In this document: positions 59,741 to 62,969 of the stretch, piece by piece
Layout of the letters: each line of letters begins with the position of its first letter
How positions within the stretch are numbered: the stretch's first letter is position 1
Assembly (NCBI RefSeq): GCF_039372665.1
Contig: NZ_CP134994.1
Coordinates: forward strand, 124,001 to 188,000
DNA length: 64,000 nt
Origin: Buchnera aphidicola (Ceratovacuna keduensis)
Lineage (GTDB): Bacteria > Pseudomonadota > Gammaproteobacteria > Enterobacterales > Enterobacteriaceae
Reading direction: 5' to 3'
Made by a program: the position numbers and the translations under genes
Notes under the pieces: model-generated
Seen by the model: the letters and a program-made list of their open reading frames with translations, nothing else
The model's database searches: none
Told to the model about the DNA's origin: nothing

Positions 59741-60850
59741 ATGTCTGAAAATAACTTTGATGAAGATAAAACTGAAGATCCTACTGAACATAAATTAAAA
59801 AAAGCTGAATTAGAAGGTAAAAGAATAAATTCTAAAGAACTAAATTTTTTATTATTTTTGTGTATAAGTTTTTATTTTGTATATATATTTAAAAATGATA
59901 TTTATTATAATTCTATAAATTTTTTTATAAAAAGTTTTAAATTTGATATTTTTTCTATTAATAGAGATATTTTTTTTAATTTAATATGTTTAATAAAAGA
60001 AAAAATTTTATATTTTTTGTTTTATTTATTTTTCCCTTATTTAGTAAATATATTAATATTATTTTTGTTTGGGAAAATAAGATTTAATATAAAAAATATA
60101 AAATTTGATTTTAAAAAGTTAAACATATTAAATGGAATTAAAAAAAATTTTTCTTATAATATATTTTTAGAAATAATTAAAATATTAATAAAAATTTTTT
60201 TTATAATATTAACGTTTTCATTTTTTATTTATAAAAAAATTTTTGAAATATTAAATATTTTTTTTATTGATGATTTTTATATAAATATTTTGTATTTTTT
60301 AAAAATGTTTGTTTTCTTTTGTTTAATAGGAATTTTTTCTTTTATACCAATATCTATTATAGATTTTTATTTGGAATATAATAGTTATTATAAAAATTTA
60401 AAAATGTCTAAACATGAAATTTTAGAAGAGTTTAAAGAAATAGAAGGAAATCCAAATGTTAAAAATATTTTAAATAGAAGAATAAAAGAAAAATTTAATA
60501 TTTTAAAAAATTCTAATATTTCTAAATCAGATGTTATTTTAATAGATTATTCAGAAAATTTTTGTATTGCTATAAAATATGATAAAAATACTATGCATGT
60601 TCCTAAAATATTAAGAAAGATTTCTAATAAAGAAATACATAATATAAAAAAAATTGCAATTTTAAATATGATACCTATTCTTAAAAATGATGATATCACT
60701 ATAAAATTATATAAATATGGAAAATCAGGAAAATATATTCCAGAAAAATTATATATGTTAGTTGCAGAAGTTATAAATTGGTCATGGAAAATGAAAAAAT
60801 GGATGTTATCAGGTGGTAAAAAACCAATATTTAATAAAAAAAATTTATAA
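59741..60850 (+). CDS. flhB: Flagellar biosynthesis protein FlhB, without the NPTH motif
   Basis: This export-gate protein of the flagellar type III system switches substrate class after self-cleavage. It has 369 residues (E. coli 382). The N-terminus EDKTEDPTEHKLKKAELEGK matches the family, followed by four membrane segments (about residues 35-215). The cytoplasmic domain keeps VAEVINWSWKMKKWMLSGGKKP. At residues 269-272, where other FlhB proteins have Asn-Pro-Thr-His, it reads Asp-Tyr-Ser-Glu (ILIDYSENFCIAIKYD), so autocleavage should not occur. flhA follows after 31 bases. Confidence 0.94.
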   Translation: MSENNFDEDKTEDPTEHKLKKAELEGKRINSKELNFLLFLCISFYFVYIFKNDIYYNSINFFIKSFKFDIFSINRDIFFNLICLIKEKILYFLFYLFFPYLVNILILFLFGKIRFNIKNIKFDFKKLNILNGIKKNFSYNIFLEIIKILIKIFFIILTFSFFIYKKIFEILNIFFIDDFYINILYFLKMFVFFCLIGIFSFIPISIIDFYLEYNSYYKNLKMSKHEILEEFKEIEGNPNVKNILNRRIKEKFNILKNSNISKSDVILIDYSENFCIAIKYDKNTMHVPKILRKISNKEIHNIKKIAILNMIPILKNDDITIKLYKYGKSGKYIPEKLYMLVAEVINWSWKMKKWMLSGGKKPIFNKKNL

Positions 60851-60881: not shown

Positions 60882-62969
60882 ATGATATTAAATTTTTCAA
60901 TATTTAAAAATGTATTAAAAGATATTAAAAAAATTAGTTGGAATTTGTTTTATGCTCCAGCAACATTATTAATGTTATTATCTATGATGATATTACCATT
61001 ACCTACATTTTTATTAGATATATTTTTTACTTTTAATATAGTTCTTTCTATTATGATTCTGTTATCTTCTATGTTTACTAGAAATATTATTGAATTTATT
61101 TCCTTTCCTACTATATTATTATTTTCAACTTTACTTAGATTGTCGTTAAATATAGCTTCTACTAGAATAATTTTAATAAATGGTCATACAGGATCTTCAT
61201 CTGCTGGTAATGTTATAGAATCTTTTGGTCATTTTTTAGTAGGAAATAATTTTTATGCAGGAATAGTAATATTCATAATATTAATAATAATAAATTTTAT
61301 AGTTATAACAAAAGGTTCTGGAAGAATTGCTGAAGTAGGAGCTAGATTTGCATTAGATGGTATGCCTGGAAAACAAATGTCTATAGATGCAGATTTAAGC
61401 TCAGGAATTATAGAAGAAAAAGAAGCTATAAAAAGAAGAAAACAAGTTTCTCAAGAAGCTGATTTTTATGGTTCTATGGATGGAGCAAATAAATTTGTTA
61501 GAGGAGATGCAATAGCTGGTATATTAATTATGTTTATAAACATAATTGGAGGTATATTAGTAGGTATTATACAACATAATATGGATTTTTATAAAGCTAT
61601 TGAAACTTATTCTCTTTTAACTATAGGTGATGGATTAGTAGCTCAAATTCCATCTTTATTGATATCTACTTCTGCTGGAGTAATGGTTACTAGAATAAGT
61701 ACTAATAAAGATATAAGTGAACAAATTGTTAATCAATTATTTAATAGTTTTAAAATATTTTTTTTTAGTAGTATTGTATTGTTAATTTTTGGATTAATAC
61801 CTGGAATGCCTCATATAATTTTTTTATTTGCTTCATTAATTTTATTTATGTTTGGAACAATTTTATATTTTAAAGATTGTTCATCTAATAAATTAAATAT
61901 TGAAAAAATTAATAAATTTAAAAAAAAATTGAAAGATGTTTCATGGAAAGATGTTATAATAGAAGATACTATAAGAATAGAATTAGGTAAAAAAATATGT
62001 ATTTATTTAAATGAAAAAGAAAAAAATAATTTAATTAATAAAATTCAATCTGTTAGAAAAAATTTTGCTAGTAAAATTGGTTTTTTACCTTCTTTTGTAA
62101 ACATAAAAAATAATTTTTTACTAAAAAAAAATGAATATAGAATATTTATAAAAGGAGTAGAATTTTATAGAGGAGAATTATTTTATAATTTGATTATGAT
62201 AATTAATAATGATCAAAAAAGTAAAATTTCTTTTCCTTATGTAAAAAAATGTATAGATCCTATATATAATATGAAATCTTTTTGGATAAATAAAAATTAT
62301 GAAAAAAAAGCTAAGAAAAATGGTTTTACTATTATAGATTCTACTTCTTTATTAGTTGCAAACTTAAATAATATTTTAAAACAAAATTTAGATGAATTAT
62401 TAGGTTGTTATGAAACACAAAAATTATTAGAAAATTTAAATTTAAAAATGCCAAAATTAGTAGATGAATTTATTCCAAATGTTATTAGTTTATCTGTTTT
62501 TAATCAAATATTAAAAAATTTGTTACATGAAAATATATATATAAGAGATATAAAAACTATAATAGAAACTTTAATACATAATTCTTCTATTACAAAAAAT
62601 CCTAATGAATTAACTAGTATAGTTAGAATTTCATTAGGAAAATTTATTTCTCAACAAATTTTTAATAATAAATGTAAAGTAAAAATAATAAGTTTAGATG
62701 ATAAATTAGAAAAAATATTAGAAAGTTCTATAAACAATAAAGATATTTTTGAACCTGATCTTGCTAGTAACATATTATTACAAACTAAATTAGCTATAGA
62801 AAATCAAATAAAAATTAATGGTTTTTTAGTTCTTTTAGTTAATCATTCATTAAGATTTATTTTATCAAAATTTTTAAGACAAAAATTTACTATGTTACAT
62901 GTATTATCTTTTTTAGAAATACCTAATAAATTAGTTATAAAATCTACTAGTATAATAGGAAAAATGTAA
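60882..62969 (+). CDS. flhA: Flagellar biosynthesis protein FlhA
   Basis: This is the proton-driven export-gate subunit of the flagellar type III system. It has 695 residues (E. coli 692). About eight membrane segments in the first 330 residues include the FHIPEP signature region GRIAEVGARFALDGMPGKQMS and ADLSSGIIEEKEAIKRR. The cytoplasmic domain (from about 345) is diverged but full length. With flhB it forms a two-gene unit. In related symbionts flagellar export machinery is kept without motility, so a transport role is plausible. Confidence 0.97.
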   Translation: MILNFSIFKNVLKDIKKISWNLFYAPATLLMLLSMMILPLPTFLLDIFFTFNIVLSIMILLSSMFTRNIIEFISFPTILLFSTLLRLSLNIASTRIILINGHTGSSSAGNVIESFGHFLVGNNFYAGIVIFIILIIINFIVITKGSGRIAEVGARFALDGMPGKQMSIDADLSSGIIEEKEAIKRRKQVSQEADFYGSMDGANKFVRGDAIAGILIMFINIIGGILVGIIQHNMDFYKAIETYSLLTIGDGLVAQIPSLLISTSAGVMVTRISTNKDISEQIVNQLFNSFKIFFFSSIVLLIFGLIPGMPHIIFLFASLILFMFGTILYFKDCSSNKLNIEKINKFKKKLKDVSWKDVIIEDTIRIELGKKICIYLNEKEKNNLINKIQSVRKNFASKIGFLPSFVNIKNNFLLKKNEYRIFIKGVEFYRGELFYNLIMIINNDQKSKISFPYVKKCIDPIYNMKSFWINKNYEKKAKKNGFTIIDSTSLLVANLNNILKQNLDELLGCYETQKLLENLNLKMPKLVDEFIPNVISLSVFNQILKNLLHENIYIRDIKTIIETLIHNSSITKNPNELTSIVRISLGKFISQQIFNNKCKVKIISLDDKLEKILESSINNKDIFEPDLASNILLQTKLAIENQIKINGFLVLLVNHSLRFILSKFLRQKFTMLHVLSFLEIPNKLVIKSTSIIGKM

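Follow-up and report, generated by a model that had tools for sequence, protein, structure and literature searches.

The window, the 64,000-nucleotide stretch of DNA analysed here, encodes an FlhB (59741..60850, forward strand, 369 aa) that lacks the NPTH cleavage motif, and this export gate and switch protein is, judging by its sequence, most likely a natural FlhB unable to cut itself. Our preferred reading is that the uncleaved protein was probably fixed in early export after loss of the ruler protein FliK had removed the need to cut. The first-pass annotation had placed the loss of the motif at 60545..60556, and this was borne out: these bases read GAT TAT TCA GAA, giving D269 followed by Y, S and E, where large-genome relatives read NPTH. 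It was right in the letters it gave (Asp-Tyr-Ser-Glu for Asn-Pro-Thr-His) but missed an inserted residue, for when aligned with E. coli K-12 FlhB and 25 large-genome FlhBs the five residues DYSEN (269-273, 60545..60559, forward strand) stand in place of the four of NPTH. Its numbering of the site as 269-272 in both E. coli and Salmonella holds for Salmonella (N269) but not for E. coli K-12, where the motif is at 268-271.

PF01312 matched the window FlhB over profile positions 1-334 of 335 (E 9.7e-66, 222.7 bits against a cut-off of 24.4), and this was its sole match in the 422,862-base assembly. The best NCBIfam match was the FlhB equivalog TIGR00328, with 211.4 bits, below the cut-off of 349.25, a score indicating that the protein is strongly diverged. 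Profile comparison matched its whole length to the solved FlhB chain 36hu (E 7e-59); single-sequence structure models were poor (mean pLDDT 39.4 and 46.4), and the full-length protein is estimated from its length at ~43 kDa. The setting is flagellar and not that of an injectisome: flhA, the export-gate neighbour (60882..62969, forward strand, 695 aa, E. coli FlhA match at E 2.6e-214), adjoins flhB, and fli and flg clusters lie elsewhere in the genome. The window FlhB shares with those of E. coli K-12 and Salmonella the family, the length range, the four-helix membrane part, the C-terminal domain and the adjoining flhA, and differs from them in DYSEN, in a loop longer by one residue, and in that FliK and the late substrates were not found in its genome.

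The whole protein sequence was searched for an intact NPTH elsewhere, a finding that would have overturned the claim, and none is present. The only other N-P is that of EGNPN (237-238), a place occupied by GDP in E. coli-type FlhB, and a motif moved within the protein was therefore rejected. The C-terminal FlhB domain (residues 275-369, 60563..60847, forward strand) is retained in frame, and across the six genus genomes 33 of its 86 aligned columns (275-360) do not vary. In Salmonella FlhB the pocket in which early substrates dock is formed by A286, P287, A341 and L344, according to the available text of PMC13344023. By alignment, its counterparts in the window are V287 P288 (60599..60604, forward strand) and A342 to I345 (60764..60775, forward strand), so that the pocket reads V, P, A, I; across the genus it reads A or V, P, A or S, and I in the alignment stretches.

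The motif is absent in all six genomes of the window genus, and in each the loop is one residue longer than in E. coli FlhB. The loop letters are DYSEN in the window and DSSNS, DPLNN, DNNNY, DLSNN and DYSNH in the other five. A sequencing error, which the first-pass annotation had named as a possible source of the change, was ruled out because five further genomes share the loss with differing letters. Compensating frameshifts were not supported either, as in all six genomes the codons align without a break of frame on either side of the loop. NG86 dN was lower than dS in 45/45 comparisons (15 pairs by three regions, six genus genomes), although dS can be estimated only roughly at so high an AT content.

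The flagellar inventory covers the 413,541-base main contig, and two small contigs were covered by whole-genome searches. Found were fliE, F, G, H, I and J, a fused fliM-fliN ORF, fliP, Q and R, flhA, flhB, flgB, C, F, G, H and I, a 91-aa flgJ and a 351-aa FlgE-like ORF. E. coli queries and iterated profiles detected no fliK, fliC, fliD, fliS, fliT, fliL, fliO, motA or motB on the main contig, and no flgA, flgD, flgK, flgL, flgM or flgN. The absence of fliK and fliC, proposed earlier as a check, was thus confirmed at this scope. The FlgE-like ORF (C1:244775-245827, L090:4775-5827) lies between flgC and flgF and matches the middle of FlgE (FlgE_D2), with both ends of FlgE left unmatched; all six genus genomes have an ORF of 343-367 aa in this place. 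The fliM-fliN ORF (463 aa, C1:62321-63709, L081:2321-3709) is likewise single in all six (462-482 aa), and also in G015 (464 aa) and G332 (435 aa). Outside the window, an exact 470-nt copy of the fliG start precedes the full fliG (C1:57958-58815, L080:17958-18815). The copy is joined to fliG by a short-period DNA repeat and is absent in five genus mates; it is either a recent tandem duplication or an assembly artefact.

NPTH was kept in all 25 FlhBs checked from large-genome family members (L033-L037, L058-L077), which came first in a ranked match list and are therefore not a random sample; their genomes are ~3.7-5.4 Mb, and they are termed free-living from size alone. The alignment across strains and relatives that had been suggested thus gave the motif in 0/6 genomes of the window genus and 25/25 large-genome members, which indicates that its loss from the window FlhB is not a matter of chance. 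The family search examined 392 genomes, of which 299 had a match at E 1e-10; a peptide-pattern scan of genome contigs gave one distant FlhB only, the patterns being too specific. The reduced set comprised every match from a genome no larger than ~700 kb, 45 in total, under 14 genus codes, most of which we take to be Buchnera and one (g101) Wigglesworthia.

Among these 45 reduced genomes, 24 keep the motif and 21 have lost it, one of the latter (G163, NAKN) being scored as motif-less. N269 is present in 24/24 of the motif-keeping FlhBs, P270 in 23/24 and H272 in 21/24; T271 is present in only 6/24 and otherwise replaced by I, V, S, M or L. These proteins resemble the window FlhB in their reduced genomes and similar fli cluster order, and differ from it in retaining those residues. 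They belong to g31, g45, g73, g91, g92, g101, g120 and g154, and the motif was lost in the window genus plus five other sampled symbiont genera (g1 6 genomes, g11 5, g59 4, g100 1, g110 3, g127 2). In four of the 21 motif-less genomes FlhB is cut off and no ORF reaches the motif (G063 and G188 of g59, G114 and G220 of g110), and stops occur in others. These four resemble the window FlhB in motif loss and in having no FliK found; unlike it, they have also lost the C-terminal domain, and their genomes gave no FlgG match. Joint loss of the C-terminal domain and the rods is a tendency only, as g127, which likewise gave no FlgG match, keeps the domain. In G182 FlhB (L018, L252) reads NATH with P270 gone, possibly an early stage of motif loss; the genome has a 315-aa FliK ORF. 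Its flg cluster lies outside the fetched stretches, and the whole genome gave no FlgG match. Six further genomes of its genus, g45, were added to make 11, all six keeping NP[TV]H, so that of 51 reduced genomes 30 keep the motif (N-P, or NATH) and in 21 it is lost or cut off.

The residues at the altered site bear on two alternative explanations. Of the 17 motif-less FlhBs that reach position 269, 11, from four genera, have D there, five N and one F. Within the window genus D269 is encoded by GAT in 6/6 members, as against none of the five columns 270-274 being invariant. Both patterns would be expected had D269 and the longer loop been selected to hold FlhB in one piece, as part of a rod-only structure with its own cargo. 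However, 55 of 145 columns (38%) in the C-terminal half (residues 216-360) are invariant across the six genomes anyway, so the invariance of one D is a weak sign of selection; the loop letters drift freely and the proposed cargo is putative. We therefore regard such selection as quite improbable. The second alternative, that cleavage of FlhB continues at a different bond or through a protease of host or symbiont, could draw on the five motif-less genomes that retain N269, all of which have neither P270 nor H272. Against it, the window genus has D at this position, no conserved alternative cleavage site was seen in the loop among the six genus genomes, and the Asn-to-Asp form of the FlhB homologue Spa40 gave uncleaved protein only, as given in the available text of PMC2615192. 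Continued cutting is accordingly a reading to which we attach very little weight.

The presence of FliK was compared with that of the motif. PF02120 matched in 16 of the 45 reduced genomes and in 0/21 motif-less ones. Iterated FliK profiles, run on the fetched fli clusters, matched in 21/24 motif-keeping genomes and again in 0/21. Among the motif-keeping genomes, FliK of G190 was recognised by profile comparison (E 6.8e-6, probability 85%) and that of G208 weakly (E 0.0094, probability 4%), and G096 has an ORF in the place of fliK that is supported by position alone. A profile built from 16 of the motif-keeping FliKs (A2) and run on whole genomes matched 21/24 motif-keeping genomes, 16 of which had built it, together with 3/3 large-genome controls. 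Because its independent recovery is 5/8, a diverged FliK could escape it. Weak A2 matches occurred in two of the 21 motif-less genomes (G114, E 0.005; G291, E 0.019), in ORFs of ~1,090 aa elsewhere in the genome.

Gene order gave a further view of the same interval. Both fliJ and fliM were found in 12/21 motif-less genomes and leave no space for fliK: the gap is -29 to 143 nt in 11 of them, and the 822 nt in G163 hold the first half of fliM. In the other nine, the fetched stretch yielded no fliJ or no fliM. The window assembly as a whole gave no PF02120 or A2 match, and its fliJ-fliM gap is 42 nt. In seven of the 24 motif-keeping genomes (G095, G124, G271, G281, G328, G336, G343) fliK may itself be broken, because the interval holds two ORFs on the strand of the gene.

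A perfect match between FliK and the motif, seen in the 45 genomes, did not hold when the six g45 genomes were added. Four of these had a FliK match (G392, G393, G395, G397). In G394 and G396, whose motif stretches are the same, NPVH is kept and the adjoining evidence for fliK is an interval of ~1.1 kb, with no match in G394 and a stop-ridden remnant of 59 aa in G396. Over the 51 genomes, 28 have the motif and a FliK gene or ORF (two by position only), 21 have neither, two have the motif without FliK, and none has FliK without the motif. The decayed fliK beside an intact NPVH in G394 and G396 is the order expected if FliK goes first. Taken together, these sequence comparisons suggest that the cut may be kept only to serve FliK, its loss having been sampled only where FliK is gone.

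Hook and filament genes do not follow the motif in this way. An FlgE ORF is missing in 7/24 motif-keeping genomes and an FlgE-like ORF is present in 6/21 motif-less ones, all in the window genus; hook loss was rejected as an explanation, since flgE presence does not track the motif. An FlgK match is missing in 14/24 motif-keeping genomes. The earlier suggestion that the loss fits a symbiont without filaments was upheld in that no filament genes were found, but motif loss tracks the absence of FliK and not simply that of filament genes. Four g45 genomes (G049, G262, G328, G383) keep fliK, with neither flgE nor flgD found between flgC and flgF (fli clusters L131, L133, L127, L136; flg clusters L166, L169, L170, L172). 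In G316 (L189, L194) flgB, C, F, G and flhB are kept, with no FliP found in the genome and no fli gene in the fetched 17.5-kb stretch.

The association of FliK with the motif is suggestive, not proven. A quick tree of 48 rows was built from DnaE, FliP, FliQ and FliR (1716 columns). The DnaE match ends before the C-terminus or has stops there in G049, G182, G197, G262, G328, G336, G383 and G104, and DnaE is full length in the window genus. The window genus groups with the motif-keeping g154, g31 and g92 (SH-aLRT 99), which requires two changes, and a single clade of all 21 motif-less genomes was not rejected (p-AU 0.42). Only two contrasts are independent, too few for significance. Genome size is a confounder that nearly separates the two groups too, with main contigs of ~395-543 kb in motif-less genomes versus 509-698 kb in single-contig motif-keeping ones.

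It is thus conceivable, though we doubt it, that drift during genome shrinkage, eroding the whole flagellar set, took away both fliK and the motif with no functional link between them. The smaller main contigs, the truncated and stop-bearing FlhBs, the absence of most other flagellar genes from the motif-less genomes and the single loss allowed by the AU test all agree with plain decay. It accounts less well for the window genus, where the motif is gone although the genes for gate, ATPase, rod and ring persist and FlhB is full length, with dN below dS. It also sits poorly with G182, which still has FliK and NATH despite its lack of an FlgG match, and with the motif being retained in genomes that have lost flgE or flgK.

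We return to the preferred reading, an FlhB fixed in early export. In Salmonella, according to the available text of PMC13344023, the self-cut of FlhB needs no FliK, removal of the severed piece does need it and turns export over to late substrates, and deletion of the C-terminal piece blocks early secretion. Loss of FliK would not itself stop the cut, because Salmonella FlhB cuts itself without it. The first step would have been the disappearance from the lineage of FliK and of the late substrates of the filament class. With them would have gone the known use of the cut, in which FliK removes the C-terminal piece of FlhB and export passes from rod and hook to filament proteins. Selection on NPTH would then have ended, and the site would have eroded here to DYSEN with its extra residue. 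Since early substrates dock on the C-terminal domain and rod proteins are still encoded in the genome, that domain would have been retained. With no FliK and no late substrates the cut would therefore be useless, and the piece, joined or not, would still be needed for rod proteins. We infer from this an uncleaved FlhB that does not switch and a gate fixed in early mode that still exports rod proteins. The earlier proposal of a permanently rod/hook-type exporter fits this picture: rod genes and an FlgE-like ORF were found, FliK, FlgD, FlgK, FlgL, FlgM, FliC and FliD were not, and the pocket is kept. The other proposal made there, a gate repurposed for different cargo, is hypothetical. A stronger form, in which a one-piece early-mode gate is held by selection through D269 and the longer loop, the rod-only export structure has a role in the symbiosis, and self-cleavage is in general maintained solely for FliK, appears unlikely.

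Functional divergence of symbiont flagellar genes was reportedly described by Toft and Fares in 2008. As far as the accessible parts of these papers go, hook genes and fliI are frequent losses in Buchnera, with good retention of flhB and other genes of the gate throughout (PMC8109811, where the motif is not taken up), flhB sequence divergence is greater in host-associated bacteria (PMC13063649), and 15 flagellar proteins were counted in the Cinara cedri symbiont (PMC3246468). The closest laboratory parallels are the Asn mutants of FlhB, Spa40 and EscU, which like the window FlhB have no cleavable Asn-Pro; Salmonella FlhB N269A is locked in early export, according to the available text of PMC3708937. 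In contrast to these, the window change is natural, fixed in the genus and alters the whole loop. Titles and abstract starts, searched for Buchnera with FlhB, FliK or NPTH and for FlhB with NPTH and autocleavage, held no report of a natural loss of the FlhB cleavage site, and in the library searched NPTH and Buchnera occurred jointly in a single paper, in a context other than Buchnera FlhB. The FlhB family itself is known, and the natural genus-wide loss of its cleavage site appears to be new.

The reason why the switch protein of type III export cuts itself is debated, and symbionts with different flagellar losses provide a natural experiment on this question. Among the genomes sampled, the site survives the loss of hook or filament genes as long as fliK is present, and its absence is confined to genomes that lack fliK. 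This pattern favours the recent Salmonella model set out in the available text of PMC13344023, which sees the purpose of the cut in allowing FliK to remove the C-terminal piece. On this view one would expect basal bodies in these symbionts to be fixed in early export.
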